DNA of 64,000 bases. Origin: Rhizobium sp. C1. Lineage in GTDB: Bacteria; Pseudomonadota; Alphaproteobacteria; Rhizobiales; Rhizobiaceae. A model generated the notes under the pieces. The model did no database searches. It saw only the letters and a list, made by a program, of their open reading frames with translations, and was not told the origin of the DNA. A program made the translations under genes and the position numbers. Positions 7,321-59,888 of this stretch are shown piece by piece. The first letter of the stretch is position 1. Every line of letters starts with the position of its first letter. The stretch covers positions 310,001 through 374,000 of the forward strand of contig NZ_JAJNCY010000003.1 in assembly GCF_021026335.1 (NCBI RefSeq). The letters run 5' to 3'.

Positions 7321-7340
7321 TGCATGCAAGGAGATTTCCC

Positions 7341-44624: not shown

Positions 44625-45119
44625 GGCGACAAGATCGCCGCTGGAATCACCGGCTTGCGTCTCAGATTCCACCATCGTGCATGCCGCCTACTCCCGCCTG
44701 CCCCATTTGCCCGCAACAGCGCCGGAATAACAGGCCCCGCGGGCGGGTCTTGCATGTGCCTATCTCCTCGGTCTCGCCTTGTACCTGTTCAGAGCGAGAA
44801 ACTCCGTCGATGAATTCGCGACTGGTAGCCGGTAGGGCGCGTACATTGGCATCTGACCGGTTCTTATTCAGCGACGGTGCCGCCCTTAGGCGACATCTCT
44901 TTATTATCAATGCACTGGACGTGAGAGAAGAATCGTGGCCTATCTGATAGTTGTGCCTTTTTGGGCGCTGTCAGGATCAAGATGCATGAAGCCACTGGGC
45001 AGAACGCGTGACAAATCAAAACGTGAGGCAACGTCGACGGGCTTTCGAGCGGTCGCATCGCTGCACCATGGAATATTGAGGTTTGACTTTGCTTCGGGCT
45101 TGTTGTCGCGAGGTGCGTC
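44625..45119. other. Gap before repB where repA would be expected; no gene found
   Basis: About 495 bases separate the amidohydrolase from repB. Frames of 60-90 residues exist on both strands, but none has RepA (ParA) motifs such as a Walker A lysine loop, and none has a good start. The stretch must hold the promoter for repB-repC unless transcription enters from the RutA operon. I see no parS-like palindrome in it. Confidence 0.5.
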
Positions 45120-46139
45120 ATGAGCCGTCGGAAGCTTGCGGGCTCAACCTTCAGCCTGGTGCCTCAGGCTGCTCCTGCAAAACAGGCGGAGCAGGCGGTT
45201 GAGAAGCAGGCAGCGACGCGTGCAGCGCAGTCCCCTGCCCGTGCCCCTGCCAATACAGAGCAGACGGGTCTCGTCAGGCTCGATACCGCGCTGATCGACC
45301 CTTCCCCGTTTGCTGACCGTCTGCTGGACGATGATCACGAACGCTTTGCAGCTTTCGTCAAGAGCGTTGCGGACCACGGCCAGCAGGTGCCGATACGTGT
45401 TCGCCCCCATCCCGAGATGGCCGGACGCTATCAGGTCGTTTACGGCCATCGGCGACTGGCCGCGGCCAAAGAGCTCAAGATTCCTGTGAACGCCCATGTC
45501 GTCGAGATCGACGATCGCGATCTGGCCGTTGCTCAAGGCATTGAAAACAGCGAGAGACAGGATCTTTCCTGGATCGAGAGAGCTCTGTTTGCCCGCAGGA
45601 TGGATGAGGCGGGATTTCGTCCCAGCGATATCTACACGGCCCTTTCGATCGACGACGCCGAACTTGCCCGTATGCGCGGCGTGAGCCGTCATGTTCCCAT
45701 GGATATTATCGAGGCCATAGGCCGCGCGCCGAAGATCGGCAGGCCGCGATGGGTTGCCATGGCGAAATCCTTTGCAAAAAATACAAATGCAGTTCAGAAC
45801 ATCCGGGAAATGTTGCAGTCCGAACGGATTCGCAAGATGGCGTCGGATGCCCGGTTCTCCTGGGTTTATGAGCTGATCGCCGAATCCCGGTCCGCTGGAA
45901 CGGGCAATGCGCCTTTGCGCGAAGCCGATGGCTTCGGCTTGGGCGAAATCAGCTATACGAGTAAACAGTTGCGTATCACGGCTGCCAACGAACGCGGACA
46001 GGCCTTCGCGGATTTCGTCAGAGCCGAGCTGCCGCGTTTGATCGAAGAGTTTAGCGCGCTGGATATCGTGACACCGAAGGCCTGTCAGATGACAGGGAAG
46101 AGCAACAGGAATAAGCCCGCTAGCGGGCCGAATGTTTAA
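45120..46139 (+). CDS. repB: RepB partition protein (first copy), not preceded by repA
   Basis: The 339-residue ParB-family protein has the nuclease-like core (HPEMAGRYQVVYGHRRLAAA, about 98-117), ENSERQDLSWIERALFARRM (about 142-161) and a helix-turn-helix with VPMDIIEAIGRAPKIGRPRW. RepB binds parS and works with RepA to segregate the replicon. The gene starts at ATG 45120. Normally repA directly precedes repB; here it does not. The stop is followed by the antisense RNA gene and repC, as in a normal repABC operon. This RepB differs strongly from the one at 58392, so they come from different repABC lineages. Confidence 0.9.
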   Translation: MSRRKLAGSTFSLVPQAAPAKQAEQAVEKQAATRAAQSPARAPANTEQTGLVRLDTALIDPSPFADRLLDDDHERFAAFVKSVADHGQQVPIRVRPHPEMAGRYQVVYGHRRLAAAKELKIPVNAHVVEIDDRDLAVAQGIENSERQDLSWIERALFARRMDEAGFRPSDIYTALSIDDAELARMRGVSRHVPMDIIEAIGRAPKIGRPRWVAMAKSFAKNTNAVQNIREMLQSERIRKMASDARFSWVYELIAESRSAGTGNAPLREADGFGLGEISYTSKQLRITAANERGQAFADFVRAELPRLIEEFSALDIVTPKACQMTGKSNRNKPASGPNV

Positions 46140-46162
46140 ATACCGAAAGGAAAACAAGCCGG

Positions 46163-46220
46163 TAAAAGAAAAGCTCCCAGAACGTCGCCGTCGTGGAAGC
46201 CTCTCTCTAAGTGTCGCAGC
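46163..46220 (-). ncRNA. ctRNA antisense to the repB-repC leader (first copy)
   Basis: On the minus strand a -35 TTGACT (46252-46247) precedes a stretch that ends in a hairpin (GCTTCCA pairing with TGGGAGC around a GACG/CGTT stem, 46200-46173) and a U-rich tail (46172-46163). The core of about 43 bases matches the second copy at 59365 with one mismatch. In repABC replicons such an RNA represses repC and sets incompatibility. The exact start and -10 are uncertain. Confidence 0.78.
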
Positions 46221-46310
46221 TTGAGAATCGCATTTCCCCGAATCATAGTCAAGAGTGTTTGGCGCCATTCATGGCGGGTGGTTTCTTTTGCCTTGTGGAA
46301 AGGTAGAAAG

Positions 46311-47603
46311 ATGCACACGGGAAATGTGACGACGCCCTTTGGGCGGCGGCCGATGACCTATGCGATGTTGACGGATCAGCTCGCAGCTCAAAGAATTGAC
46401 GAAAACGCCTCCGTCGACAAATGGAAGCTATATCGCTGGCTTTGTGAGGCCAGGACCAGGATTGGCGTTTCCGATCGCGCGCTTTCACTTCTGAATGCGC
46501 TCCTGAGCTTCTATCCGAAATCCGAGCTGCTGGGATCTGACAGTCTCATTGTCTTTCCGTCCAATGCGCAGCTGTCGCTGAGAGCGCATGGCATGGCAGA
46601 GGCGACGATCCGACGCCATATTGCAGCGCTGGTTGACGCCGGTCTGCTCATCAGACGCGACAGCGCCAACGGGAAGCGGTTTGCCAGACGCGACAGCGAA
46701 GGGGACATCGGGCAGGCCTTCGGTTTCTCGCTGGCGCCGCTTCTGCAGCGCGCGGAAGAACTGGAGGCCATGGCTGCCGAGGTTGTCGCAGAGCGGCTTC
46801 ATTTCCAGTCTCTGCGGGAACGGCTCACGATCTGCCGGCGCGATATCGTGAAACTGCTGGACGCCTCTGGCGACGAAGCTGACGTGGCTGAGGATGAAGA
46901 GATCGAACGCATGCGTAGCCTTTACAGAGACGTGATGGCAGGCCTCCCCCGAAAGCCGGATGTGTCGGAACTCGACGCGATAATCCTGGTCCTTGAAGCG
47001 CTCCGCGAAAATCTCGCCAACTACCTGGCGCATCGCCATAAAACTGAAAATTATAGCGGCAATCCCGCCCATTCTGAGCGGCACATACAGAATTCAAATA
47101 CACAATCCAAATATGAACTTGAACCTCGCTTTGAAACAAAGCCGGGTGAAAATCGCGACGTGGCAAATCAGGAAATGCCGGACATGATGAAGGGACAGAC
47201 AACGCACCGAGCGCCTGTCAGCTACCAGGCAGGACCCGTGCTGGAGAGTGCCGGACTGAAACCGTTCCCGCTGGCCATGGTTTTGTCCGCCTGCCCTGAA
47301 ATGCTGAATTATGGGCCCGGGGGCACAATTGGAAGCTGGCGCGACTTCCTGAGCGCTGCGGTCGTTGTCAGATCGATGTTGGGTGTCTCTCCGAGTGCCT
47401 TTGAGGAGGCCTGTGCGGTGATGGGACCTGAAAATGCCGCGACCGCGATTGCCTGCATTCTCGAGCGCGCCGGACACATCAATTCTGCTGGCGGCTACCT
47501 GCGCGACCTCACGCGCCGTGCGGAGCGCGGCGAATTTTCGCTGGGCCCGATGCTGATGGCGCAGTTGCGCGCCAATGGTGAAGTGGGCGTGAGACGAGCA
47601 TGA
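46311..47603 (+). CDS. repC: Replication initiator RepC
   Basis: The 430-residue protein fits repABC RepC: the start TPFGRRPMTYAMLTDQ, the winged-helix part (LLGSDSLIVFPSNAQLSLRA, then MAEATIRRHIAALVDAGLLI), a variable middle, and the conserved end (PENAATAIACILERAGHINS, GGYLRDLTRRAERGEFSLGP). RepC binds inside its own coding region and starts replication. The ATG at 46311 follows GAAAGGTAG; a longer frame from 46221 crosses the ctRNA. This is the only repC in the window, so replication of the replicon may depend on it. Confidence 0.93.
   Translation: MHTGNVTTPFGRRPMTYAMLTDQLAAQRIDENASVDKWKLYRWLCEARTRIGVSDRALSLLNALLSFYPKSELLGSDSLIVFPSNAQLSLRAHGMAEATIRRHIAALVDAGLLIRRDSANGKRFARRDSEGDIGQAFGFSLAPLLQRAEELEAMAAEVVAERLHFQSLRERLTICRRDIVKLLDASGDEADVAEDEEIERMRSLYRDVMAGLPRKPDVSELDAIILVLEALRENLANYLAHRHKTENYSGNPAHSERHIQNSNTQSKYELEPRFETKPGENRDVANQEMPDMMKGQTTHRAPVSYQAGPVLESAGLKPFPLAMVLSACPEMLNYGPGGTIGSWRDFLSAAVVVRSMLGVSPSAFEEACAVMGPENAATAIACILERAGHINSAGGYLRDLTRRAERGEFSLGPMLMAQLRANGEVGVRRA
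47030..47130. other. Probable oriV, AT-rich segment inside repC
   Basis: The middle of repC contains a clearly AT-richer stretch (for example AAACTGAAAATTATAG at about 47040 and AATTCAAATACACAATCC near 47091), in contrast to the GC-rich flanks. In studied repABC replicons the origin lies in such a segment of repC. The limits are approximate. Confidence 0.5.
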
Positions 47604-47631
47604 AAAACGCCGCGATCGGTAACCGCGGCGT
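47603..47631 (-). terminator. Rho-independent terminator between the convergent repC and FAH genes
   Basis: An 8-bp stem (ACGCCGCG / CGCGGCGT) with a 9-base loop is followed on the minus strand by TTTT (47606-47603). It would end the fucose operon after the FAH-family gene; it overlaps the repC stop. Confidence 0.72.
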
Positions 47632-47674
47632 GAAGAGGCTTGTTGTGTCGGGTCGGCTGTCGGCTGCTGTCCGG

Positions 47675-48526
47675 TCAGGACACGACGCGTTGCGTTTGAA
47701 CGCCGAGACCTTCGATCCCGAGCGTCATGACCTCGCCGCCTTTGAGATAGACTGGCGGCTTCTGTCCCATCCCGACGCCGGGAGGCGTGCCCGTCGAAAT
47801 GACGTCGCCGGGCTGCAGGCTCATGAAACGGCTGAGATAGGAAATCAGGAAGGGCACCTTGTAGACCATCGTTTTGGTGGAGCCGTTCTGATAGCGGTGA
47901 CCATCGACCTCGAGCCACATCTTCAGGTCATCGAGATTGCGGACTTCATCCGGGGTCACGAGCCAAGGACCAAGCGGACCGAATGTGTCGCAGCCCTTGC
48001 CCTTATCCCAGGTCCCTGCCCGCTCGATCTGGTATTCGCGTTCGGAGACGTCGTTGATGACGCAAAAGCCAGCGACATGCGACATGGCGTCAGCTTCGTC
48101 AATGTAGACGCCGCCCTTGCCGATGACGACGCCGAGCTCGACTTCCCAGTCGGTTTTGACCGAGCCTCGCGGAATTCTGACCTCGTCGTCAGGCCCGATA
48201 ATTGCAGAGGTCCACTTGTTGAAGACAACCGGCTCCGGAGGCACGGTCGCGCCGGTTTCGGCGGCATGGTCGGCATAGTTGAGACCGATGCAGATAAATT
48301 TTCCGACCTGGCCGACACAGGGACCGAGCCGCGTCTCCTTTTGCGGTGCGCCTGGGACCAAGGGAAGCTTGTTGATGTCCAACGTCTTGAGCCGGGATAT
48401 TGTGTCAGGCAGGAGCGATGCACCGGCCACGTCCGGTATGACAGCTGACAGGTCACGAATACGGCCCTGCTCGTCGAGAAGACCAGGCTTTTCCTGTCCG
48501 GCAGGACCATAGCGCAGCAGTTTCAT
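47675..48526 (-). CDS. FAH-family hydrolase, probable 2,4-diketo-3-deoxy-L-fuconate hydrolase
   Basis: The 283-residue protein has the fumarylacetoacetate-hydrolase metal site: CIGLNYADHAAETG (about 78-91), PVVFNKWTSAIIGP, the acidic residues in DWEVELGVVIGKG (about 125), and STGTPPGVGMGQKPP. In the non-phosphorylating L-fucose pathway such an enzyme cleaves 2,4-diketo-3-deoxy-L-fuconate to pyruvate and lactate. The role is inferred from the operon; related enzymes serve other diketo acids. It starts after AGGAGACT and is last in the operon from 54557. Confidence 0.85.
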   Translation of the reverse strand: MKLLRYGPAGQEKPGLLDEQGRIRDLSAVIPDVAGASLLPDTISRLKTLDINKLPLVPGAPQKETRLGPCVGQVGKFICIGLNYADHAAETGATVPPEPVVFNKWTSAIIGPDDEVRIPRGSVKTDWEVELGVVIGKGGVYIDEADAMSHVAGFCVINDVSEREYQIERAGTWDKGKGCDTFGPLGPWLVTPDEVRNLDDLKMWLEVDGHRYQNGSTKTMVYKVPFLISYLSRFMSLQPGDVISTGTPPGVGMGQKPPVYLKGGEVMTLGIEGLGVQTQRVVS

Positions 48527-48602
48527 AGGGGAGTCTCCTGTTGGGATGGAATAGGCCCGGCATTATTCGTGCCGGGCCGGAAAATATTAGAAAACGCGTT
48601 GA

Positions 48603-49550
48603 TCAATCGTAGAGAACTGCGGCGATCTTCGGGTCGTTGATATTGGACTTATCGTACCAGTAGAAGCCGGTGTCGATATGCTTCTGAACCGGTTGACCCT
48701 TGACGGCAGCAAGCGCGGCTTTGACGGTTTCATAACCGATCCCCACCGGGTTCTGCGTAATCGCGCCCGCCATGACACCGTCGTTGATCGCCTGCTTCTG
48801 CGCCTTGCCGGAGTCGTAGCCGATAATGACGATCTTCGACTTGCCGCTTTCCTTCACACCATTGACCACGCCAATGGCCGAACCTTCGTTCGCGCCGAAG
48901 AAGCCCTTGATGTCTGGATGTGCGGTGATGATCGACTTGGTGATTTCCGTCGATTGAAGCTGGTCGCCCGCACCATACTGGATGTCGACGATCTGGATTT
49001 TCGGATACTTGGACTTGATCTGGTTGACAAAGCCGTCGCGGCGGTCAATGCCGGTGCGCGAGGTCTGATCGTGAACCACGAGAGCAACCTTGCCTTCGTT
49101 GCCTATTAGAGCTGCCATCTTGTCAGCTGCCAGGGCTGCTGCTGCAACGTTGTCCGTCGAGCAGGTTGTTACTGGAATGTCGCTATCCACGCCGGAGTCG
49201 AAAGCGATAACCGGGATCTTCTCCGATTGGGCCTTCTTGAGAAGCGGGATGGCGGCCTGGCTGTCCAGTGCGGCGAAGCCGATGGCGGCCGGATGCTTGG
49301 CGAGTGCCGCGGTCAGCATATCGATCTGTTTGTCGACCTGCGCTTCGGTATCAGGACCTTCGAACGTGACCTGAAGGTCAAATTCCTTGGCGGCCTTGTC
49401 CGCGCCGGCTTTGACGGCCTGCCAGAACTGATGCTGGAAGCCCTTCGAAATCAGCGGAATGTAAATTTTGTCGGCAGCCTTTGCGACACCGGTCGCTGCG
49501 ACCACGGCGGTCGCGCTGACGGCGCCGAGAAATGTACGTCTCGTGAACAT
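48603..49550 (-). CDS. Sugar ABC transporter binding protein (RbsB-like)
   Basis: The 315-residue protein starts with a signal peptide (RRTFLGAVSATAVVAATG, cleavage after AKA) and shows the periplasmic-binding-protein fold of ribose-type proteins (IPLISKGFQHQFWQAVKAGA, AALDSQAAIPLLKKAQSEKI, PVIAFDSGVDSD, KIVIIGYDSGKAQ). Two arginines at the start hint at possible Tat export. The ATG at 49550 has GGAGGAC directly before it. It probably binds L-fucose or a related deoxysugar and passes it to the permease at 49636. Confidence 0.88.
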   Translation of the reverse strand: MFTRRTFLGAVSATAVVAATGVAKAADKIYIPLISKGFQHQFWQAVKAGADKAAKEFDLQVTFEGPDTEAQVDKQIDMLTAALAKHPAAIGFAALDSQAAIPLLKKAQSEKIPVIAFDSGVDSDIPVTTCSTDNVAAAALAADKMAALIGNEGKVALVVHDQTSRTGIDRRDGFVNQIKSKYPKIQIVDIQYGAGDQLQSTEITKSIITAHPDIKGFFGANEGSAIGVVNGVKESGKSKIVIIGYDSGKAQKQAINDGVMAGAITQNPVGIGYETVKAALAAVKGQPVQKHIDTGFYWYDKSNINDPKIAAVLYD

Positions 49551-49635
49551 GATGTCCTCCTCAGGTTGGTTCACTTCATTTTGTGATAGTCACGGGGCGT
49601 TCAGTGCCCTTCTGTTTTGGTCGGAACGGAAACCT

Positions 49636-50643
49636 TCAGGCCGTCCGTCTCCGCATCATGTCCGCATAGACGGCGATGATGATGATGGATCCCGTAACCA
49701 CGGTCTGCCATTCCTGCGGCATGGACAGAATGCGCAATCCGTTGAGCAACACGGACATGATGAGCGCGCCGATCAGGGTGCCGAGAATGGTTCCGCGTCC
49801 GCCGGAAAGAGATGTGCCGCCGATGACGACCGCCGCGATGGCGTCGAGTTCGTAACCCTGGCCGAGAGCTGGCTGGGCAGAATTCAGGCGCGACGCGATG
49901 ACCAGTCCTGCGATGCCGCAGATGCCTCCGGAGAGGGCGTAAATCGCCATTTTCCAGTTATCGACACTGACGCCTGAGAGGCGTGCGGCTTCCTCATTCG
50001 ACCCCAAGGCAAAGCAATATCGACCCAAAACGGTGCGACCCAGAATATAAGAAGCAAGGACCGCAACCAAAAATAGCACCAGAACCCCGTTAGGCACCGG
50101 AAGGCCCGGAATGAGATCGCCCGTGATCGAACCTGTGGAGATGACGGGGAAGGAAGGCGTGTTGTTGAAATAGATCGGCTTCGTGCCGGAGATCACCAGT
50201 GACAGACCCTTCAAGATCAGCATCATGCCGAGGGTGGCGATAAAAGGCGGGATTTTCATCTTGGCTATGATCGCCCCAGACGTGAAGCCGATCAGGGCCC
50301 CGGTCAAAATGGCGGCAAGAATGCCAAGTGGCAGGGGCATCCCCCAGTAGGTAAGCACAACGCCAGCGATAACCGCGGTGAAGGTCATCAAAGTACCGAC
50401 CGACAGGTCGATTCCGCCCGTAATGATGACGAGCGTCGCCGCAACGGCCAAGATGCCGTTCACGCTGGTTGCCTGCAGAATCGCCAGGATATTAGTCGTC
50501 TGCATGAAGTTCGGCGATGCCAGGCTGAAGCCGATCAAGAGAATGATAAGTGTTCCGAAGGCCAACAACTTCTGTTGCGCGCCGGAAAAACGGCCTTTTG
50601 ACGCGGCGGCGGCCATAGGGGCCGTGATCTCGGTGTTGGTCAC
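49636..50643 (-). CDS. Sugar ABC transporter permease (RbsC-like)
   Basis: The 335-residue protein has about ten membrane helices and the BPD_transp_2 signature ([20 protein letters not shown] near 80-99, [40 protein letters not shown]). It is close in style to ribose and deoxysugar permeases. Its ATG overlaps the ATPase stop (ATGA, 50643-50640). It serves the same importer as the flanking binding protein and ATPase. Confidence 0.92.
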
Positions 50644-52181
50644 CCTACCCTCCTCTGCATTTCCGTATCGGTCTCAACAACCATCGATTCTCGCAGTGTG
50701 GCGAGACGCATGATATCTTCCTGCCCCGTGGCCGCGCCGCCCGGCAGGATACCGGTCAGCCGTCCTTCGCACATGACCGCGATGCGGTGCGAAAGCCGCA
50801 TCACTTCCGGCAGTTCCGAGCTGATGACGATGATCGCCTTTCCACTTTTGGAAAGATTGGTAAGCAGCTGATATATCTCTGATTTCGCGCCCACATCGAT
50901 CCCGCGGGTCGGTTCGTCGAAAATCAGGATGTCACAGTTTCTCAGTAGCCACTTGGCGATGACGACCTTCTGCTGGTTGCCCCCGGAAAGGAGCTTGACC
51001 TCCTGAGTGTCGGACGGGGTGCGAATGGCAAGCTTTCGAATGTAGTCGTGAGCCGTATTTTTCATTGATTTTTCATCGAGTCGCCCCGGAAATCTCATGA
51101 AAGACTTGAGCGACGCCAAGGCGATATTGTTGCGCACGTCCATGGACAGTGCCAAGCCAAAATGCTTGCGATCTTCCGAAAGGTAGCCGATTCCAGCTTT
51201 CACCGCGTCATGGGGCGAGCGGATAGTCTGCGGCTTGCCATGAACCAGAATCTCACCAGACTCCAGCGGGTCGGCACCGAAAATGGCGCGTGCAACTTCC
51301 GTGCGCCCTGCGCCCATGAGGCCGGCGAAGCCCAGGATCTCGCCACGGGCCAGCGAGAAGCTTACATCCCTGATTTCACGTCCACGCCTAAGGCCTTTTA
51401 CTTCCAATGCAATCGGGTTTTTCGACGTATCGGGTACCTGTAGCGGTTCATCCTTCACTTCGCGGCCAACCATTTTGGTAATGATTGTGTTGATCGGCGT
51501 GTCCGCGGCCGGAACGGTGTCGACAAACTCGCCGTCCCGCATAATCGTGACGCGATCGGCTATGCGTTTCAACTCGTCCATCTTGTGGCTGATATAGACC
51601 ACGCCGACACCCTGCACCTTCAGATCCCGGATGATGCCGAACAGATCGGCGATCTCGGCGTCGTTCAGGGCTGCGGTGGGTTCGTCCATGATCAGGACTC
51701 GAAAATTATAAGACAGAGCCTTGGCGATTTCGACCATCTGCTGTTTGGCGATCGTCAGGCCTCCGACCGTCGCCTGGGGATCGAGCTTGAGCCGCATGGT
51801 TTTGAAAATCTCGGCGGCCTGCTGATTGAGCAGACGTTCGTCCAAGAGACCGAAGGCGCGGCGGGGCTCGCGACCGATGAAAATGTTTTGCGCGGCTGTG
51901 AGGTCATTCATCAGGCTGAGCTCTTGATGAATGATGCCGATACCGGCCGCCTGCGCGCTGCGTGGACTGGCAAGCTCGATTGTCTTGCCGTCTATGAGGA
52001 TTTCGCCTGCGTCCGGGCGGTATATGCCGGCCAGTATCTTCATCAGGGTGGACTTGCCGGCGCCATTTTCACCCATCAGTGCGTGAACTTCGCCTGGACG
52101 CAGGTCGAAGCGGGCCGATTTGAGCGCATGAACGCCGGGGAACCGTTTCTCGATTCCCCTCATTTCGATCACTGTTTGCAT
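50640..52181 (-). CDS. Sugar ABC transporter dual ATPase (RbsA-like)
   Basis: The 513-residue protein has two ABC domains: the first with [16 protein letters not shown] (about 38) and [12 protein letters not shown], the second with [15 protein letters not shown] and the signature [17 protein letters not shown] (about 402) followed by [14 protein letters not shown]. This is the normal pattern of RbsA/MglA proteins. The ATG at 52181 follows GGGAGGG; a longer frame would run into the SDR gene. It drives uptake of the sugar used by the surrounding fucose-type pathway. Confidence 0.92.
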
Positions 52182-52215
52182 TTGCAGCCCTCCCAAGCCG
52201 CTGGATGCCGTCAGG

Positions 52216-52965
52216 CTAGATGGTAACACCTCCATCCACCAGCATGGCCTGGCCGCTGACGAAGCGGCTTTCGGGCGACAAAAGATAGATCACCATGGGC
52301 GTTATGTCGCTCACGCTGGCGAGCCGTCCCATCGGCTGCCGTGCAATAAAGTCCTTCTCCGCCTGAACCGGGTCGGCCGAGGCAGCAATGCGCCCGCGCA
52401 ACGAGGGGGTGTCGACCGTTCCGGGGCAAATGGCGTTACAGCGTATCCCCTGCTTGACGAAATCAGCGGCGATCGACTTGGACAGCCCTATGACGGCGGC
52501 CTTTGTGGCGCCGTAGGATGTCCGATTGACGAAGCCCTTGATGGAAGAGGCCATGGAAGCCATGTTGAGGACCGAAGCGGTCCCGGTTTCCGCTGCCCGA
52601 TCAAGCATTCCGGGCAGAAATGTCCGGCACATTCGCATCATGGCCGTCACGTTCAGATCGAAGGCAAACGCCCAGTCGGCGTCGGTGATGTCGAGAACCG
52701 TGCCGTTGTGAACGACACCTGCGCAGTTGAAAAGCCCGTCCAGTTTCGGAAGATTGGCCGCCAAAGCATCGATTTGTGTCTGCTTCGTCACATCAAGACG
52801 ATATGTCTTAATGTTTGAATTTTCAGCATAAAGCGACGCCAGAGATTCCGTATCAATATCGGTCGCGTGAACAACTGCGCCTTCCGCAGCCGCCGCCAGC
52901 GCCGATGCGCGTCCTATACCCTGCGCCGCGGCAGTTATAAGTATATTCATACCCTTAAGGCGCAT
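52216..52965 (-). CDS. SDR oxidoreductase, probable 2-keto-3-deoxy-L-fuconate dehydrogenase
   Basis: The 249-residue SDR has [18 protein letters not shown] as cofactor motif (about 12-29), NCAGVVHNG (about 84), and the active-site [12 protein letters not shown] (tyrosine near 151). The start and spacing resemble DHRS6-like enzymes that oxidise 2-keto-3-deoxy-L-fuconate at C4 with NAD+. The neighbours (dehydratase before, FAH hydrolase after) fit that role. Substrate assignment is by pathway context. Confidence 0.86.
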
Positions 52966-53033
52966 TATTAAACCTCTACGCGAGCTTACTTAAACGATCG
53001 CGTGAAACTGAAGTAATATCTCACGCGAGAGTG

Positions 53034-54557
53034 TTACATAACTGCACCGATTTGCCACGGAACAAACTCCGCGCCGCCGAAGCCTAGTTCTTCGCTCTTA
53101 GTCCGCTCGCCCGACGCCACACGGATAATCAGCTCAAAAAGCTCCTTGCCCTTCTGCTCGATGCTCACACCGTCGGAGACAATGTCGCCACAGTTGAGAT
53201 CCATGTCTTCCGACAACTTATTGTACATTTCCGAGTTGGTGGCGAGTTTGATGCAGGGAGTCGGCTTGTATCCCGAGACGGAACCACGACCCGTGGTGAA
53301 GACGATGAGGTTTGCGCCGGAGGCAACCTGGCCCGTCACGGAGCACGGATCGAAACCGGGACTATCCATGAAGACAAAACCCTTTGCGTCGATTTTCTCA
53401 CCGAATTTGTAAACGCCGCTCAAGGGTGCAGTGCCGCCTTTTGCGACCGCCCCCAGAGACTTTTCAAGGATCGTTGTCAATCCGCCGCGTTTATTTCCGG
53501 GGGACGGATTGTTGTCCATCTCGCCGCCGTTGCGGGCGGTATAATCCTCCCACCAACGGATGCGTTCGATGAGCTTTTCACCGATTTCCACGCTCTTGGC
53601 GCGGCGCGTCAGCAGGTGCTCCGCGCCATAAATTTCAGAGGTTTCAGACAGGATTGTGGTGCCACCGTGGCGCACCAGAAGGTCGGATGCGTAACCGAGG
53701 GCCGGGTTCGCCGTAATACCGGAATATCCATCTGAACCGCCGCATTGCAGCCCAATTGTGATCTCAGAAACAGAAATTGGTTCGCGGACCGCCTGGTTTG
53801 CGTATTCTGCGACGCCCTTGAGGGCATCCAGGCCACGTTCTATAGTCCGGCGGGTACCACCCTCCTGCTGGATAGTCATGTATTGCAGAGCCCCGTCTGC
53901 GCGGATTTTACGGCCGCCGACGAGTTCGGGGATCTGCATGACCTCACAGCCGAGGCCGAGCAGCAGAATACCGCCAAAATTGGGGTTTTGCGCGTAGCCG
54001 GAGAGGGTTCTGAAGAGTGTGGAATAGCCCTCGCCTTCGCCCGACATGCCGCAGCCGGTCGAATGAACAATCGGAACGATCCCGTCAATGTTCGCGTATT
54101 GGTTGAGGAATCCGGCCTTCTCTGCTGCTTCAGCAATAAATTTCGCTACCGAGCCGGAACAGTTCACGGTTGTCAGGATGCCGATGTAGTTGCGGGTTCC
54201 GGCCTTGCCGTCCGCGCGACGAAAACCCTGGAATGTGCGAAGGTCGGTTGCGCGCTCCAAAGGCAAGTTTTGTGTGGCGTGACCATAATCTTGGTGATGC
54301 TCACCCATGCCGAGATTTTGGACGTGGACATGTTCGCCGGCGAGGATATCCGCCTTTGCCTGCCCGATTATCTGTCCGTATCGATAAATGTTCTCGCCCG
54401 ACATGATGTTCCGGGTCGCTACTTTATGGCCGCGCGGAATTGCAAACTGAAGGGGCATGGAAATCTCGTCGACGCGCTCGCCCGCAGCCAGATCGCGCAG
54501 CGCGATTGCCACGTTGTCATTCAAATGCAGGCGAATCAATTTAGCGCCTCGGTCCAT
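53034..54557 (-). CDS. UxaA/GarD-family sugar-acid dehydratase, probable L-fuconate dehydratase
   Basis: The 507-residue protein has the altronate/galactarate dehydratase organisation: an N-terminal SAF-like part (NDNVAIALRDLAAGERVDEI, about 13-32) and the large catalytic part with GYRRADGKAGTRN-like wording (FRRADGKAGTRNYIGILTTV, about 112-131), HSTGCGMSGEGEG, LLLGLGCEVMQ, LQCGGSDGYSGITANPA and FTTGRGSVSGYKPTP. The conserved cysteines and histidines suit an iron site. In the better known pathway L-fuconate is dehydrated by an enolase-superfamily enzyme; a UxaA-type replacement is known from Campylobacter fucose clusters. It is the first gene of the minus-strand fucose operon. Confidence 0.87.
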   Translation of the reverse strand: MDRGAKLIRLHLNDNVAIALRDLAAGERVDEISMPLQFAIPRGHKVATRNIMSGENIYRYGQIIGQAKADILAGEHVHVQNLGMGEHHQDYGHATQNLPLERATDLRTFQGFRRADGKAGTRNYIGILTTVNCSGSVAKFIAEAAEKAGFLNQYANIDGIVPIVHSTGCGMSGEGEGYSTLFRTLSGYAQNPNFGGILLLGLGCEVMQIPELVGGRKIRADGALQYMTIQQEGGTRRTIERGLDALKGVAEYANQAVREPISVSEITIGLQCGGSDGYSGITANPALGYASDLLVRHGGTTILSETSEIYGAEHLLTRRAKSVEIGEKLIERIRWWEDYTARNGGEMDNNPSPGNKRGGLTTILEKSLGAVAKGGTAPLSGVYKFGEKIDAKGFVFMDSPGFDPCSVTGQVASGANLIVFTTGRGSVSGYKPTPCIKLATNSEMYNKLSEDMDLNCGDIVSDGVSIEQKGKELFELIIRVASGERTKSEELGFGGAEFVPWQIGAVM

Positions 54558-54660
54558 TCCTGTACATCCTCCCCCGTTAATTCTTGGTTTTCCGGGCCTC
54601 TGGCGTCTACTGACATCAGATGTTAATTAGAGTTCTATCTTGACTAGTACACAATGTCAA

Positions 54661-54672
54661 CTAACATGTTAG
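54661..54672. promoter_or_regulatory. Palindromic operator candidate in the fucose control region
   Basis: CTAACATGTTAG is a perfect 12-bp palindrome between the divergent dehydratase and regulator genes. A half-site-like TGTTAATTAG lies at about 54621 and a TTGAC/GTCAA inverted pair at 54640-54660. It is a plausible binding site for the GntR regulator at 54700. Confidence 0.5.
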
Positions 54673-54699
54673 AAATGATTTGACGGAGATTCGACGGGG

Positions 54700-55416
54700 A
54701 TGACGCAGGCTTTCAATGCACGAGTTTTAACTGCGATTGATGATTTACCGGGGTCGCTGGCGCAGCGTGTGTATCAGTCGCTGCAGGAGGCGATCATGTC
54801 CCTGACGTTTCCGCCGGGCACTTTGATCCGCAAGGGCGCCATCTGCGATGAACTCGGCGTATCACGTTCGCCGGTGTCGGAAGCGATCACGCGGTTGGCC
54901 TCTGAAGGCCTGGTGGATGTGATCCCCCAGAGCGGAACGCGCGTTGCGCGCTTCTCGATTGAAGAAATTCGCGAGGCCGCTTTCATGCGCGAGGCGCTGG
55001 AAGTCGCGGCTGTCGAAAAGGTCGCCCGCGATCACACACCCGACCAATATGCCAAACTCGCCCGCAATGTTCGGTTGCAGGCTATGCTTGTCGAGGATCA
55101 TGACACGGCGGGCTTCTATCAGGCGGATGAAGAGTTTCATGCGCTGCTGATGGAATTCACCGGCTTTCCCGGCGTCGCGGCTGCCGTCTCAACGATCGCG
55201 CTGAAACTGAAGCGGCCTAGAATGCTCCTTCTGCCTGAACCCGGACGGAACGACAACGCGGTGCGGGAGCATCTGGCGATAGTCGAGGCTATTCGCGACC
55301 GAAATCCGGACGAGGCGCGTTCTGCCATGCGTTATCATCTGGCTCAGTTGGTCAGCCGTTTCGATCCGCTCGAGAAGGAGCATCCGGAATTTTTCCGTTC
55401 GCGGCAGTCGCACTGA
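54700..55416 (+). CDS. GntR-family regulator, FadR/FCD subfamily
   Basis: The 238-residue protein has a GntR winged helix (about 20-85: LAQRVYQSLQEAIMSLTFPP, CDELGVSRSPVSEAITRLAS) and an FCD ligand domain (about 93-220) with the metal-binding histidines in DEEFHALLMEFTG, EHLAIVEAI and AMRYHLAQL. Such proteins commonly sense sugar acids. It is divergent from the fuconate dehydratase operon and upstream of the aldo/keto reductase and FucU genes, so it probably controls both transcripts. The ATG at 54700 follows a weak GACGGGG. Confidence 0.9.
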   Translation: MTQAFNARVLTAIDDLPGSLAQRVYQSLQEAIMSLTFPPGTLIRKGAICDELGVSRSPVSEAITRLASEGLVDVIPQSGTRVARFSIEEIREAAFMREALEVAAVEKVARDHTPDQYAKLARNVRLQAMLVEDHDTAGFYQADEEFHALLMEFTGFPGVAAAVSTIALKLKRPRMLLLPEPGRNDNAVREHLAIVEAIRDRNPDEARSAMRYHLAQLVSRFDPLEKEHPEFFRSRQSH

Positions 55417-55448
55417 ACCGCCCTTCCCTCCTCTGAAAGTGTGTCCGC

Positions 55449-56501
55449 ATGAAGCTGACCGATACGATGCTGCTGAACAAGCGGACCCGCGACCCTGTTT
55501 TCATGACACGAATGGGGTTCGGTGGAGCGCCGCTCGGGAATCTGTACCGCAAGGTCAGCGATGAGGACGCGCAAGCCGCTCTGCTTGCCGCCTATGACGT
55601 CGGCATTCGTTACTTCGACACGGCGCCGCAATACGGCCTTGGGCGGTCGGAAGAGCGTGTCGGCAAGGCCATGCAGGCCTTCGGTGCAGAAAACATCGTT
55701 CTCTCAACCAAGGTTGGAAGGCTCTTGCTCGACTGCGAGCCGGACGAGGTGACGCCGGAGAGTTTCGTCGATGTGCCTCAGAAGCGCATCGTCTTCGACT
55801 ATACCTATGACGGGGTGATGCGAAGCTATGAGGCCAGCAAGGACCGGCTTCAGACTGACCATGCTAGCATTCTACTCGTGCACGATGTTTGCGTTTTTTC
55901 GCAAGGGTCACAAGAGGCTAGCGACGCCAAAGTTCGCGAGCTTTTCGATGGCGGCGGCTACAAGGCCCTGGTCGAGCTTCGCGACGCCGGGCAGATTTCG
56001 GCTATTGGTGCGGGCGTGAACGAATGGCAGGTTTGCGAAAAGCTTCTCGGGCTTGGCGACTTCGACTGCTTCCTGCTGGCCGGCCGTTATACGCTTCTGG
56101 AACAGGAGGCGCTGGAAAGTTTTCTTCCGCTTTGCGAGACACGCGACGTCGGGATCATATTGGGCGGTCCCTATAACTCCGGGATCCTGGCCACCGGGGC
56201 TGTCGAAGGCGCGCGGTATAATTACGAGCCGGCTCCGCCGGAAATCCTCGAGCGAGTCGGCAAGATCGAAACCGTATGCCGTGCGCATGATACGCCGCTG
56301 ATTGCAGCAGCGCTTCAGTTCGTATTCGGACCCCCTTGTGTCAAGACGGTGATTCCGGGTGCGGTGAACCGGAACGAGCTTCTGGCCAATGCCAAACTTC
56401 TGGAAGTGGATATCCCCCCTGCCCTCTGGACGGACTTGAAAGAGGAAGGTCTTATCCGCTCAGATGCCCCCGTTCCAAAGGATAACCGACATGCTGCGTA
56501 A
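55449..56501 (+). CDS. Aldo/keto reductase, probable L-fucose 1-dehydrogenase
   Basis: The 350-residue protein has the aldo/keto reductase tetrad: aspartate in YFDTAPQYGLG with tyrosine just after (about 53-58), lysine in LSTKVGRLL (about 82) and histidine in ILLVHDVCVF. It belongs to the group of D-threo-aldose/L-fucose dehydrogenases that oxidise L-fucose to its lactone with NAD(P)+. It starts 32 bases after the regulator, and its last codons overlap the start of fucU. No lactonase gene follows, so the lactone may open by itself or elsewhere. Confidence 0.86.
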   Translation: MKLTDTMLLNKRTRDPVFMTRMGFGGAPLGNLYRKVSDEDAQAALLAAYDVGIRYFDTAPQYGLGRSEERVGKAMQAFGAENIVLSTKVGRLLLDCEPDEVTPESFVDVPQKRIVFDYTYDGVMRSYEASKDRLQTDHASILLVHDVCVFSQGSQEASDAKVRELFDGGGYKALVELRDAGQISAIGAGVNEWQVCEKLLGLGDFDCFLLAGRYTLLEQEALESFLPLCETRDVGIILGGPYNSGILATGAVEGARYNYEPAPPEILERVGKIETVCRAHDTPLIAAALQFVFGPPCVKTVIPGAVNRNELLANAKLLEVDIPPALWTDLKEEGLIRSDAPVPKDNRHAA

Positions 56502-56919
56502 CATCCCACCGATTCTGTCGCCCGATCTGCTTCACGCCCTTGCCGCCATGGGCCATGGCGACGACATCGTCATCGCCGATGCCAACTATCCGGCCGAGAG
56601 TTCGGGTGTTCCCTGCATCCGGCTCGACGGAATTTCCGCCACCGATGCGCTGGAAGCGATTCTTGCGCTCTTGCCGCTCGACAGCTACGTGCCCGACCCG
56701 GCTCTGGTGATGCAGGTCGTGGGCGACCCGTCGGCGGTTCCGGAGGTTGTTTCCGAATTCCAGGCGATTATTGAGCGCGTCGCTGATAATCCGGCTAAGA
56801 TTGGCAGTCTCGAGCGCTTTGCCTTCTATGATCGCGCCAGCGATGCCTTCGCCGTGGTCCAAACCGGCGAGCGGCGGCTCTATGGCAATATCATCCTGAA
56901 GAAGGGCGTTATCAAGTAG
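56491..56919 (+). CDS. fucU: L-fucose mutarotase (RbsD/FucU family)
   Basis: The 142-residue protein has the FucU hallmarks: IPPILSPDLLHALAAMGHGD at the start with the catalytic-site histidine, IADANYPAESSG (about 27-38), and RASDAFAVVQTGERRLYGNI at the end. FucU interconverts alpha- and beta-L-fucose so that dehydrogenase or transporter can use the proper anomer. The ATG at 56491 lies inside the end of the preceding gene and follows AAAGGATAA. This protein is the strongest evidence that the operon handles L-fucose or a close 6-deoxysugar. Confidence 0.9.
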   Translation: MLRNIPPILSPDLLHALAAMGHGDDIVIADANYPAESSGVPCIRLDGISATDALEAILALLPLDSYVPDPALVMQVVGDPSAVPEVVSEFQAIIERVADNPAKIGSLERFAFYDRASDAFAVVQTGERRLYGNIILKKGVIK

Positions 56920-57004
56920 CACCTGCCTGCGGTCGGAGGCGAACCTCTCTCCGCACATAAGGCGGATCGATATTCTTGAGCCGGATAAGCAAGTGGCCCG
57001 GGAG

Positions 57005-57021
57005 CGGGCCATTACGGCCCG
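57005..57021 (+). repeat. Inverted repeat between fucU and repA
   Basis: CGGGCC and GGCCCG flank a 5-base loop (ATTAC), about 85 bases after the fucU stop. There is no T run. It may slow transcription from the fucose operon into repA. Confidence 0.4.
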
Positions 57022-57060
57022 TTAACCCTGTTCCCTTGCGCTATCTGACGAATCTGCGAT

Positions 57061-57101
57061 AATAACGATTATTCATTCTACCCCGTCCGAAAATCGTTAT
57101 T
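57061..57101 (+). promoter_or_regulatory. Inverted repeat in the repA promoter region (candidate RepA operator)
   Basis: AATAACGATT (57061-57070) and AATCGTTATT (57092-57101) form a perfect 10-bp inverted repeat in an AT-rich stretch 16-56 bases before the repA start. RepA-RepB complexes repress their own promoter at such repeats in known replicons. Confidence 0.55.
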
Positions 57102-57116
57102 TGGAAATCAGACTCG

Positions 57117-58328
57117 ATGAACGCCGTCACCTCAACAGCGACCGATCGCACAGCCTTTCACTTTGAGGACGAGATTCTCGAGCAGGGCGATCTGATTTCG
57201 AAGAAGCTGCATCTGCTGAGCCTGCAGCGTTTTCCCCCAACGGCACACAAGACCTTGCGCGCCTTTTCCCTCGCAGAGGTGGCGCACTTTCTCGGCGTTT
57301 CGCAAAGCACGCTGAAGAAGCTCCATCTTGAAGGCAAAGGTCCCCTGCCCCAGACGTCGGCTTCCGGGCGCCGTTCCTATACCGCGCAGCAAATGGCGGA
57401 GTTGCGTGACTATCTGAGCCAGCATGGACGCTCTGACGTAAAGGATTATTCGCCGCGTCGCCGTCCCGGCGACAAGCTTCAGGTCGTGGCGGTCGTGAAT
57501 TTCAAGGGCGGTTCTGCCAAGACCACGACGGCCGCGCATCTTGCGCAGCATCTGGCACTGACGGGTCATCGCGTCCTTGCGATCGACCTGGACCCGCAGG
57601 CCTCCCTCACCTCGCTTCACGGTTTCCAGCCTGAGCTCGACCAGACGCAATCGCTCTATGAGGCCATCCGCTATGACGACGAGCGCAGACCTATTGCAGA
57701 TGTGATCCGGCAGACAAATTTCCCCGGGCTGGATATCGTACCTGCCAATCTGGAGCTTCAGGAATTCGAATACGACACGCCGCTTGCGATGGCGAACCGC
57801 AATTCGAATGAGGGCAAGACCTTTTTCACGCGCATCTCGCGCGCGCTTGCGGAGGTCGATGATCAGTATGACGTCGTTGTCATCGATTGCCCTCCGCAAC
57901 TCGGCTATCTGACCATTACGGCGCTTGTTGCTGCGACTAGCGTGCTGATCACCATCCATCCGCAGATGCTGGATGTGATGTCGATGGGTCAGTTCCTGTT
58001 GATGCTGGGCGGTATTCTGAAGCCGATCCGTCAGGCGGGCGCGGAGGTCAATCTGTCCTGGTACCGTTATCTTGTGACGCGTTACGAGCCGACCGATGTG
58101 CCGCAGGCGCAGATGGTTGGTTTCATGCAGACGCTGTTCAACGAGTTCATGCTGAAAAACCAGATGCTGAAATCGACGGCGATTTCCGATGCGGGCATTA
58201 CCAAGCAGACACTCTATGAAGTGGAGCGGACGCAGATGACCCGGTCAACCTATGACCGCGCCATGGAGGCTTTGGGATCCGTCAATGCGGAAATCACGCA
58301 ACTCATTCATGAGGCGTGGGGCCGGTGA
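57117..58328 (+). CDS. repA: RepA partition ATPase (ParA family)
   Basis: The 403-residue protein has an N-terminal MerR-like helix-turn-helix (about 43-100: SLAEVAHFLGVSQSTLKKLH, then RRSYTAQQMAELRDYL) and a ParA ATPase domain with the deviant Walker A NFKGGSAKTTTAAHLA (about 130-145), ALDLDPQASL-type wording (AIDLDPQASLTSLHG) and VVIDCPPQLGYL. It segregates the replicon together with RepB and represses the operon. The following repB is 63 bases away, with a parS-like site between. Its own operon lacks repC. Confidence 0.94.
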   Translation: MNAVTSTATDRTAFHFEDEILEQGDLISKKLHLLSLQRFPPTAHKTLRAFSLAEVAHFLGVSQSTLKKLHLEGKGPLPQTSASGRRSYTAQQMAELRDYLSQHGRSDVKDYSPRRRPGDKLQVVAVVNFKGGSAKTTTAAHLAQHLALTGHRVLAIDLDPQASLTSLHGFQPELDQTQSLYEAIRYDDERRPIADVIRQTNFPGLDIVPANLELQEFEYDTPLAMANRNSNEGKTFFTRISRALAEVDDQYDVVVIDCPPQLGYLTITALVAATSVLITIHPQMLDVMSMGQFLLMLGGILKPIRQAGAEVNLSWYRYLVTRYEPTDVPQAQMVGFMQTLFNEFMLKNQMLKSTAISDAGITKQTLYEVERTQMTRSTYDRAMEALGSVNAEITQLIHEAWGR

Positions 58329-58329
58329 A

Positions 58330-58345
58330 GTTGTCGGCTGACAAA
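58330..58345. promoter_or_regulatory. Candidate parS site between repA and repB
   Basis: GTTGTCGGCTGACAAA matches the repABC centromere consensus GTTNNCNGCNGNNAAC in every fixed position except the last. Some repABC replicons carry parS between repA and repB. The palindrome is imperfect. Confidence 0.55.
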
Positions 58346-58350
58346 AACAG

Positions 58351-58369
58351 GGAAATACGCAATATTTCC
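58351..58369. repeat. Inverted repeat between repA and repB
   Basis: GGAAATA and TATTTCC are perfect inverted arms around a CGCAA loop, 5 bases after the parS-like site and 23 before the repB start. It may be a second protein site or an mRNA structure in the repB leader. Confidence 0.45.
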
Positions 58370-58391
58370 AGTGGCATAGAGGTGGATGGCA

Positions 58392-59366
58392 ATGGCGCGT
58401 AAGAATCTTCTCGCGGGTTTGGCGAATGCGGACGAAGTGCAGCCGGCCTCTGCGGCCGCCTACCCCATGCGCGGCGCGTCGAAGACAATGATCCGCTCGC
58501 TTGACGAGCTGGCCAGGCAGGCTGACAAGTTTCTGGAAGGCGAAGCTGTTATCGAGATCGATCCCTCGGATATTGACGGTTCGTTCGTTTCTGACCGGCT
58601 GGAGGATGATGAGGCGCAGTTTGCGGCGCTGAAGGATGCGATTGCTGAGCGTGGGCAGGATTCGCCTGTCCTGCTTCGTCCGCATCCCGAGCGCCAGGGA
58701 CGCTACCAGATTGTCTTCGGCCATCGTCGTGTCCGCGCCGCCCGCGAACTCGGGCGCCAGGTCCGGGCTGTAGTGAAGGCGATTGACGATCGCTCTCATG
58801 TCATTGCCCAAGGCCAGGAAAATTCAGCGCGCGCCAATCTGAGTTTCATCGAGCGCGCGCTCTTCGCAAAACGGTTGGAAGATCTCGGTTATGGACGAGA
58901 GGTCATCGGCTCAGCGCTTGCGGCCAATGCGGCAGCTTTGTCCAAGATGGTGTCTGTCACGTCCCGCATCTCGGAGAATGTTCTTTCAGCTATCGGTCCG
59001 GCGCGTGGTGTGGGCCGTGAACGGTGGGTGGAATTGTCTTTGTTAGCCGGCAAGGAATCGAACGCGGACCGCATCGATTCCATCGTGTCCGATCCGTCTT
59101 TCCGGGGGCAGTCGAGTGATGAACGTTTCAACGGGCTCTATCTTGCGCTGAAGCAGGGAGGGAAGCCGGTCAAGAAGACGAAGCCGGCGGCCAGTGTGGA
59201 AACATGGCAGGCGGGCGACAAGCTCGTCTCTGCGCAGTTCTCGCAGTCGACCACGTCGTTCTCCGTGACATTGAAGGCGAAGGATGCGCCCGCCTTTGGT
59301 CGCTTCCTGAAAGAAAACCTGGACAGGCTTTACGGTGAATATCTGTTGGAAAAGAAGGGGCGCTAA
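58392..59366 (+). CDS. repB: RepB partition protein (second copy)
   Basis: The 324-residue ParB-family protein has HPERQGRYQIVFGHRRVRAA (about 98-117), ENSARANLSFIERALFAKRL (about 142-161) and a helix-turn-helix around SKMVSVTSRISENVLSAIGP. The ATG at 58392 follows GAGGTGG; an ATG 6 bases earlier is too close to that site. It is in one operon with repA. Its start (ARKNLLAGL) is a typical RepB N-terminus. It differs markedly from the RepB at 45120, yet both are followed by nearly the same ctRNA gene. Here no repC follows. Confidence 0.92.
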   Translation: MARKNLLAGLANADEVQPASAAAYPMRGASKTMIRSLDELARQADKFLEGEAVIEIDPSDIDGSFVSDRLEDDEAQFAALKDAIAERGQDSPVLLRPHPERQGRYQIVFGHRRVRAARELGRQVRAVVKAIDDRSHVIAQGQENSARANLSFIERALFAKRLEDLGYGREVIGSALAANAAALSKMVSVTSRISENVLSAIGPARGVGRERWVELSLLAGKESNADRIDSIVSDPSFRGQSSDERFNGLYLALKQGGKPVKKTKPAASVETWQAGDKLVSAQFSQSTTSFSVTLKAKDAPAFGRFLKENLDRLYGEYLLEKKGR

Positions 59367-59422
59367 AAAAGAAAGGCCCCCAGACGTCGCCGTCGTGGAA
59401 GCCCCTCTCTAAGTGTCGCAGC
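59365..59422 (-). ncRNA. ctRNA antisense to the repB 3' leader (second copy)
   Basis: On the minus strand a -35 TTGACG (59454-59449) leads to an RNA ending in a strong hairpin (GGCTTCCA pairing with TGGGGGCC around GACG/CGTC) and a U-rich tail that overlaps the repB stop (59374-59365). The core is shared with the copy at 46163 with one mismatch, and base changes in the stem keep pairing. The exact 5' end is uncertain. Confidence 0.78.
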
Positions 59423-59450
59423 TTATGGGTGCCACGTCCTCGAATAGGCG

Positions 59451-59888
59451 TCAAGAGTCCGCATCGGTTTTGATCCCGATGCGGACTATTTTTTTTATGG
59501 GAGCGGCGCGAGAGTGCCGGCGGGCAGCGTTGGCAATTGGCCAAATCAACCGAGTGGGGCGGGCGAGGGCGTGCCCTCGAAGCGCAAGCCGGACGATCGC
59601 TGCTTGTTCAAGCAACGCGAATCGCTTCGTGTCATCGAGGTGCTTGACGGCGCCCAAGGCCCTTTGGGTTGTGGTCGCCCCCTTGAGAACGGCTTCCCAG
59701 ATTTGTCGACCCGCCCCAGGCAGCCCCACCACGTCGTGTGCGGTATCTTTCGCGACGGTAGCAGAGGAGTCGTTCTGGTCGAGCGCGAAATGTTGCGACC
59801 GAATTGCGTCAGTCGGGGCTATGGGGGGGTAAGTTGGTGCGAACGCGGCGTGTGGGCTCGGCTGCTCCTGTAGTCTCTCCTTGGTCAT
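59451..59888 (-). CDS. Uncertain hypothetical protein (145 aa)
   Basis: An open frame from ATG 59888 encodes 145 residues (TKERLQEQPSPHAAFAPTYP, ALDQNDSSATVAKDTAHDVV) that look fairly protein-like but match nothing I know. There is no ribosome-binding site, and its end runs through the terminator and ctRNA promoter, which argues against a real gene. Confidence 0.25.
   Translation of the reverse strand: MTKERLQEQPSPHAAFAPTYPPIAPTDAIRSQHFALDQNDSSATVAKDTAHDVVGLPGAGRQIWEAVLKGATTTQRALGAVKHLDDTKRFALLEQAAIVRLALRGHALARPTRLIWPIANAARRHSRAAPIKKIVRIGIKTDADS
59456..59496 (+). terminator. Strong rho-independent terminator after repA-repB
   Basis: A perfect 12-bp stem (AGTCCGCATCGG / CCGATGCGGACT) with an 8-base loop is followed by eight T. 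It lies where the leader of repC would be in a normal repABC operon. It would stop the repAB transcript. Confidence 0.82.

Follow-up and report, generated by a model that had tools for sequence, protein, structure and literature searches.

The 64,000-nucleotide stretch of Rhizobium sp. C1 analyzed here (the window; positions 310001-374000 of contig C16 in draft genome G000, an assembly of 4.53 Mb in 22 contigs) carries a repABC replication and partition system divided into two incomplete halves, and the explanation that probably accounts best for the findings overall is a working, vertically inherited mosaic replicon. One half comprises repB1, the gene for a counter-transcribed RNA (ctRNA1), and repC, with repB1 directly preceding repC and no repA there; the other comprises repA, repB2, and a second ctRNA core, ctRNA2, without repC. 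This layout, which a first-pass annotation had read from the sequence, was confirmed when genes were identified by open reading frames (ORFs), Pfam, and NCBIfam and ctRNAs by the Rfam model ctRNA_p42d (RF00489; gathering score, 50). Homologs of RepA, RepB, and RepC were all present at the split locus, and ctRNA1 lay between repB and repC as in a repABC operon. The genes did not form a single operon: they were arranged in two units 9.5 kb apart, with some of the intervening genes on the opposite strand and a terminator after repB2. As the annotation had also stated, the two RepB proteins were clearly different (about 36% identity), and the ctRNA cores were alike, both scoring above the gathering score (54.3 and 53.8 bits); the ctRNA1 and ctRNA2 regions formed a 93-nucleotide (nt) direct repeat with 77% identity. 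Neither a repA relic 5' of repB1 nor a repC relic 3' of repB2 was found in five genomes of the genus by tblastn with the collected RepA and RepC sequences (E ≤ 0.01); the search returned nothing apart from a pair of short RepC matches (E = 0.007 and 0.008) ahead of repB1, and in G005 just 327 bases exist upstream of repB1 before the contig ends.

The split layout was found in five (G000, G001, G002, G004, and G005) of the six genus assemblies compared (G000 to G005), and counts over five genomes refer to this set. Identity between the window and its four relatives was 95 to 97% for RepA, 86 to 88% for RepB2, 75 to 78% for RepC, and 76 to 81% for RepB1. Mean proportions of nonsynonymous and synonymous differences (pN/pS) across the five genomes were 0.025/0.569 for repA, 0.065/0.636 for repB2, 0.131/0.684 for repB1, and 0.151/0.630 for repC. 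Because all four ORFs have been kept in five species with pN below pS, the halves do not look like relics, and it is highly probable that the split system is real and functional. The earlier suggestion of separated replication and partition modules is supported in part, and the system is judged to be a stable mosaic replicon and a variant of repABC. In G001, which is assembled in six contigs (3.47 Mb, 886 kb, 580 kb, 169 kb, 49 kb, and 41 kb), the split system lies on the 580-kb contig C2, on which no other RepB or RepC match was found. RPA-type initiators (PF10134) were observed in G001 on C5 (41 kb) and on C4 (3.5 Mb, at 792960), the latter perhaps in an integrated element.

Judging from the neighbors of related sequences, two repABC lineages contributed to the split system; they are labeled in this analysis alpha, to which RepA and RepB2 belong, and beta, to which RepB1 belongs. 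The alpha set consisted of 77 loci from outside the genus, among 80 kept of 316, with identities of 76 to 84% for RepA (67% in one) and 53 to 66% for RepB2. Three of them (L121, L151, and L176) stop too early after repB for repC to be scored; in the 74 scorable loci, a RepC match lay directly downstream in 72 (partial in L116, fragments in L122), and no downstream RepC match was found in L115 and L138. The beta set consisted of 25 loci, the best fetched matches outside the split genomes from 297 family genomes, one of them G003. RepA lay directly upstream in all 25, with 46 to 52% identity to the window RepA in 24 and 64% in one, and a RepC match lay downstream in 21, some loci being short. 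These neighbors fit the fusion with complementary loss that had been proposed for the window, although RepC could not be assigned to the RepB1 lineage. In the RepC phylogeny (103 rows), the genus RepC sequences formed one group that included G003 (97/85), and RepC exchange between alpha and beta backgrounds was frequent; with 12 partner changes over three labels and genus RepC in a single group, assignment of RepC to one lineage by the tree was rejected. The suggestion that RepC of one lineage may replicate what RepA and RepB of another segregate is supported as far as the layout goes, in which repC lies beside a RepB of a different lineage from the partition module; the tree does not assign RepC itself to that lineage. 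G003, the sixth genus genome, had no close RepB2 (best match, 43%); its RepC, of 61% identity, belonged to a canonical operon with yet another RepA/RepB, and its contig C6, on which two exact beta-parS sites lie, encoded a RepB that shares 54% identity with RepB1 and is accompanied by its own RepA. In the L115 genome, the repC-less repAB is preceded on the same strand, at a distance of about 8 kb, by a repABC operon (of its repA, only the end is in the fetched stretch); this might parallel an intermediate state, but the RepB of that operon is only 41% like RepB1.

Several unusual loci were observed alongside. In L138 (Rhizobium sp. Leaf453), repA-repB is followed by large repeat proteins; no ctRNA was recognizable there, and the 10 kb downstream gave no repC match. 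In L153, a stretch of about 11 kb holds two oppositely oriented repABC operons that belong to different lineages. L172 and L173 encode identical RepC proteins in a Rhizobiaceae assembly and in a metagenome-assembled genome labeled Aggregatilineales (Chloroflexota), the latter probably through a contaminating contig. The window genome itself contains a third incomplete system, L028 (G000 C21:24000-36000), at 4662-7404 on a 226-kb contig, in which repA-repB is followed by a 155-amino-acid (aa) ORF matching RepC over only 25 residues.

RepB1 lacks the N-terminal part through which a RepB would be expected to contact RepA, and it has probably lost the interaction as well. The NCBIfam model partition_RepB (TIGR03454) matched RepB1 only at positions 55 to 324 of 325 and RepB2 at 1 to 323; the missing segment corresponds approximately to RVGAGVIGA..R.I.DIR.ERDRL in closer relatives. 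A hand-tuned pattern for this Arg-Gly-Ala-type N-terminal segment was found in 78 of 79 RepB proteins of alpha loci (including two from second operons, one of which was the single miss), in all 25 beta proteins, and in none of the five genus RepB1 proteins. The profile result is the firmer of the two because other RepB lineages are often without the pattern. The ParB_N and RepB domains are kept, and no cognate repA gene lay beside repB1 in any of the five genomes (in G005, within the 327 upstream bases).

The scan for beta-parS-like sites took as its pattern the 16-bp palindrome that has been put forward as the pSmeLPU88b parS; the RepB of that plasmid is 52% like RepB1. The window contained six such palindromes at up to three mismatches versus 0.27 expected, a number reached in none of 100 shuffles. 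With up to two mismatches genome-wide, all 10 sites in G000 lay on C16, all six in G001 on C2, all five in G002 on C45, and all six in G004 on C28; G005 had two on C10 and four on C36, and C36 was assigned to the split replicon because its four sites are ordered orthologs of four on G001 C2. The five genomes thus contained 33 sites, 29 on the repB1 contig and four on G005 C36, spread over tens to hundreds of kilobases of the split replicon, and the reversed-pattern control gave 2, 1, 2, 2, and 1 matches (8 in all, as genome-wide counts without contig positions). The site at the 3' end of repB1 occupied the same place in all five genomes with one or two mismatches. Three orthologous sites, found in five, five, and four genomes, all lay inside reading frames, and 18 of 18 third codon positions within them were invariant, compared with 39/99, 53/99, and 24/99 in their flanks; the flank of site I, where the frame shows three stops, is perhaps partly noncoding, and the product of the three chances (1.8e-8) assumes independent positions in sites picked by palindrome match. 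At a fourth place, two different sites about 350 bases apart were present in different genomes. It is thus very likely, from these sequence patterns, that the dispersed sites are under DNA-level selection.

Elsewhere the distribution of such sites was as follows. Eight complete plasmids with RepB1 relatives (repC being annotated beside repAB in six, not listed for W01, and W04 having no annotation) had 16 sites, of which 15 lay no more than about 3 kb from the rep genes. Among eight genomes from other genera, the RepB1 relative shared its contig with 20 of the 36 sites found, and the other 16 lay elsewhere. The 77 alpha loci (1.48 Mb) contained only two beta-parS-like sites; an alpha-type parS-like site (up to four mismatches) lay near the repA-repB junction in 68 of them. 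In L200 (G174 C14), a RepB1-related repAB with no repC seen in its short flank, the contig also carries beta-parS-like sites at distances of about 200 and 420 kb. The generic parS consensus is GTTNNNNGCNNNNAAC; as a candidate it was rejected, since its two window matches were not above chance (22 of 100 shuffles) and the match at 44787 was not conserved in relatives.

The two ctRNA regions differed in their promoters. The pattern sought, GANTC and TTGAC 23 nt apart, was present in all 75 scorable alpha-locus regions (from 79, two being without a ctRNA, one without an anchor, and one too short), in ctRNA1 of all five genomes, in G003, and in six of six scorable regions of other lineages (two at 21 nt); it was absent from ctRNA2 in all five genomes, where the -35 TTGAC was kept and no GANTC stood at the -10 place. 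Yet the first 65 nt of ctRNA2 were invariant in the five genomes (65/65), compared with 7 of 137 fourfold sites in the neighboring repB2. A 13-nt segment, ACGTCGCCGTCGT, occurred in ctRNA2 of all five genomes and in ctRNA1 of four (the last base differs in G002); it was found in one (L149) of the 110 other RepB-downstream regions that were compared, a few of which had no recognizable ctRNA (two regions were too short), and was also absent from the canonical operon of G003. In duplex calculations, ctRNA1 paired with its own target at -120.7 kcal/mol, with the ctRNA2 sense strand at -99.5 kcal/mol, and with two other leaders in the genome at -46.8 and -50.0 kcal/mol, so that cross-pairing of ctRNA1 with ctRNA2 is possible according to these predicted energies and would be stronger than with the two other leaders. 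Wobble patterns between the two regions, judged by eye, were mixed and were not used as evidence. The invariance of ctRNA2 without a -10 element, with a terminator behind it, was read as selection on the plus strand, the target copy; on this ground, ctRNA2 is put forward tentatively as a decoy for ctRNA1, with somewhat less than an even chance of being one.

Taken together, these findings suggest how a divided repABC could work. The replication module would be the promoter, repB1, ctRNA1, and repC; RepC would start replication at an origin expected inside repC and would be limited by ctRNA1, as in other repABC plasmids. The partition module would be repA, the alpha-type parS, and repB2, about 9.5 kb away, ending in the ctRNA-target copy and the terminator. 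The arrangement most likely goes back to the fusion of two repABC replicons, possibly through a crossover between their similar ctRNA segments, after which one repA and one repC would have been lost. RepB1, its own repA and N-terminal region gone, would no longer partner RepA but would most likely still bind the dispersed beta-type parS sites, regulating repC or organizing the molecule. In what would be the weakest step, ctRNA2, if active, would most likely soak up ctRNA1 whenever repAB is transcribed and so couple the partition genes to the replication genes again despite the split. The full combination, in which a RepA-less RepB1 acts at dispersed palindromes as a replicon-wide DNA organizer or clock convergent with Noc and a promoterless ctRNA re-couples the two units as a partition-mRNA decoy, is a speculative extension and is unlikely to hold as a whole.

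Several observations weigh against parts of this account. The ends of G001 C2 show no overlap, so that circularity is not established; the genome-wide RepA search covered the window genome only; and GC skew over 144 kb of contig C16 indicated no origin. The window genome carries complete repABC operons on C6 and C18, contigs that could belong to the same molecule as the split system. RepC is not linked to the beta lineage by its tree. The N-terminal pattern was also absent from four of eight RepB rows of other lineages and from the canonical G003 RepB, and contact with RepA might still be made through the short conserved start that RepB1 has retained (MSRRK.AGS.F.LVP). In each of G286, G174, and G220, the contig that encodes the RepB bears two additional sites 83 kb to more than 1 Mb from it, and these RepB proteins keep the N-terminal segment, which means that dispersal is not unique to the split system and need not follow loss of RepA binding. 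As for ctRNA2, the promoter pattern was absent from 6 of 15 scorable beta regions too (present in 9; 25 beta regions in all), ctRNA2 could use a promoter that the simple pattern misses, and some of the differences between ctRNA1 and ctRNA2 would be mismatched in the decoy duplex. Duplex specificity is also not clear-cut, because the ctRNA of contig C18 pairs moderately with the ctRNA2 sense strand (-79.9 kcal/mol) and with the repC leader (-71.9 kcal/mol).

These points leave room for other explanations. RepB1 might still partition, with one RepA serving both RepB2 at the alpha-type parS and RepB1 at the dispersed beta-type sites in a wide centromere; the DNA-binding domains and the short N-terminal peptide retained by RepB1 and the selection on three presumed RepB1 sites speak for it. 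It is nevertheless rather unlikely, since the N-terminal region of RepB1 lies outside the RepB profile match, the RepA proteins beside RepB1 relatives are distant from this RepA (46 to 52% identical in 24 of 25, 64% in one), and RepA proteins of coexisting plasmids are specific for their own operators (PMC4492784; this and the other papers are cited from excerpts), a specificity that concerns operators and not RepB binding. Alternatively, ctRNA2 might be a second antisense RNA, expressed from another promoter and repressing repC in trans at a higher ctRNA dose. For pairing of its conserved core and 5' tail with the repC leader, the predicted energy is -102.9 kcal/mol, and the -35 TTGAC is kept; loss in all five genomes of the -10 GANTC that is present in 75 of 75 alpha regions and in ctRNA1 of all five makes this doubtful as well.

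Both halves might instead be dispensable remains on a molecule replicated by another system. Rhizobia do have composite plasmids that carry spare rep modules (PMC5613091), and complete repABC operons exist elsewhere in the window genome; the first-pass annotation had warned that such an operon on the same molecule would make the copies dispensable. That concern remains for C6 and C18 in the window genome; in G001, the complete operons lie on C1 and C3 (169- and 886-kb contigs) and the split system on C2. Retention of all ORFs in five species with pN well below pS argues against remains, as does C2 of G001, where searches limited to RepC and RPA-type initiators turned up neither a second repC nor an initiator of the RPA type, so that this explanation is very improbable. 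Misassembly, conceivable in a draft assembly in which the ctRNA repeat could mislead the assembler, had been raised at the outset and was ruled out for practical purposes, as five assemblies share the layout and differ in their flanks. A working mosaic replicon with a divided repABC is therefore preferred.

Table 1. Features of the split repABC locus and related sites in the window
Feature	Position	Strand	Evidence or remark
Conserved block 5' of repB1 (CTGGACG ... CTATCT)	44915..44978	+	Likely repB1-repC promoter region; promoter role judged by eye
repB1	45120..46139	+	339 aa; ParB_N and RepB DNA-binding domains (Pfam PF07506, PF02195)
Beta-parS-like palindrome CCTGTCAGATGACAGG	46081..46096	+	repB1 3' end; 1 mismatch to proposed pSmeLPU88b parS (PMC10194956, excerpt)
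ctRNA1	46162..46206	-	RF00489, 54.3 bits; intact promoter pattern (-35 TTGAC, -10 in GATTC)
repC	46311..47603 (ATG); listed ORF from TTG 46221	+	430 aa; Pfam RP-C, RP-C_C; NF040974 RepABC_RepC
Beta-parS-like palindrome inside repC	47214..47229	+	2 mismatches
Beta-parS-like palindrome in transporter binding-protein gene	49119..49134	+	2 mismatches
Dispersed beta-parS-like palindrome	4846..4861	+	2 mismatches
Site I, dispersed beta-parS-like palindrome	5751..5766	+	Orthologous in 5/5 genomes
Catabolic cluster between halves	47675..56919	both	~9.2 kb; ORFs
repA	57117..58328	+	403 aa; ParA-type ATPase; TIGR03453 partition_RepA
Alpha-parS-like site GTTGTCGGCTGACAAA	58330..58345	+	Between repA and repB2; sole exact copy in window
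repB2	58386..59366	+	326 aa; full-length RepB; TIGR03454 positions 1-323 of 325
ctRNA2 core	59365..59408	-	RF00489, 53.8 bits; usual -10 element lost; + strand is ctRNA-target copy in repAB 3' region
Intrinsic terminator (GTCCGCATCGG/CCGATGCGGAC and a run of T) immediately behind ctRNA2	59457..59496	+	Folds as end hairpin; kept in 5/5 genomes

The block upstream of repB1 was kept in all five genomes, and its flanking sequence was not. Among the fetched loci, a 21-base part of it occurred with up to two mismatches solely upstream of repB1 and with four or five mismatches at three unrelated places. The ATG is likely the start of repC rather than the upstream TTG because G002 has an in-frame stop between them. 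Between the halves lie genes named by eye as encoding an FAH-type hydrolase, a sugar ABC transporter, a short-chain dehydrogenase/reductase, a UxaA-type dehydratase, a GntR regulator, and an aldo/keto reductase, together with an RbsD/FucU protein matched by PF05025. The intervening genes are conserved in the genus, the aldo/keto reductase being poorly matched in G004; the ABC transporter genes were not found in G001 and G004 in the genus comparison.

With repABC, the textbook case is that of a single operon joining replication to partition, and a natural, conserved separation would show whether the essential link is the shared operon, the shared lineage, or only regulation in trans. The split system would also be a natural experiment on how a ParB behaves without its ParA, and ctRNA2 would provide a candidate RNA decoy in plasmid copy control. 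Replication of p42d requires RepC and needs no other protein of the operon, and its origin lies within repC (PMC3155836); separating repC from repAB should for this reason not stop replication. Among rhizobia, repC-less repAB operons, separate repC copies, and composite plasmids are known (PMC3898782, PMC5613091, and PMC10194956). Some replicons in PMC9040568 are without repC according to a figure legend. A parS near the ctRNA has been suggested to let RepB influence ctRNA transcription (PMC9040568); by analogy, RepB1, with a site at the end of its gene, fits such a role. Among titles and abstract openings (most subscription journals lying outside the scope), no repABC in two incomplete halves, ParA-less RepB, or ctRNA decoy was found.

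With the canonical repABC systems of p42d, pTiR10, and pSymA (PMC6090056), the split system shares the RepA, RepB, RepC, and ctRNA families, the promoter pattern of ctRNA1, and a parS near repAB; it differs in that its genes form two transcription units separated by about 9.5 kb, its RepB proteins come from two lineages, one of these proteins has no RepA, and one ctRNA lacks the usual -10 element. Rhizobium grahamii pRgrCCGE502b (PMC3898782) likewise has a repC-less repAB operon and a second RepB on a large replicon, but its other operon is a repABC, whereas here neither half is complete. Fusion origin and a repC apart from repAB are likewise described for Martelella pMM259 (PMC5613091) and for pSmeLPU88b with repABC and repC (PMC10194956); both keep at least one complete repABC, whereas here the functions are divided between the halves. 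Remote parS sites also occur in pAMI4 (3parS) and on chromosome 2 of Allorhizobium vitis (PMC9040568), there as noncoding clusters that serve partition with a full repABC and here as single sites, the three orthologous ones being intragenic. Noc, a ParB paralog of Firmicutes (PMC8429893), is likewise a ParB relative with scattered 16-bp sites. It acts on the chromosome, whereas RepB1, the sites of which are known by sequence only, would act on a secondary replicon, and to the Noc family model RepB1 scored 41.9 bits and RepB2 39.7 bits against a cutoff of 315.

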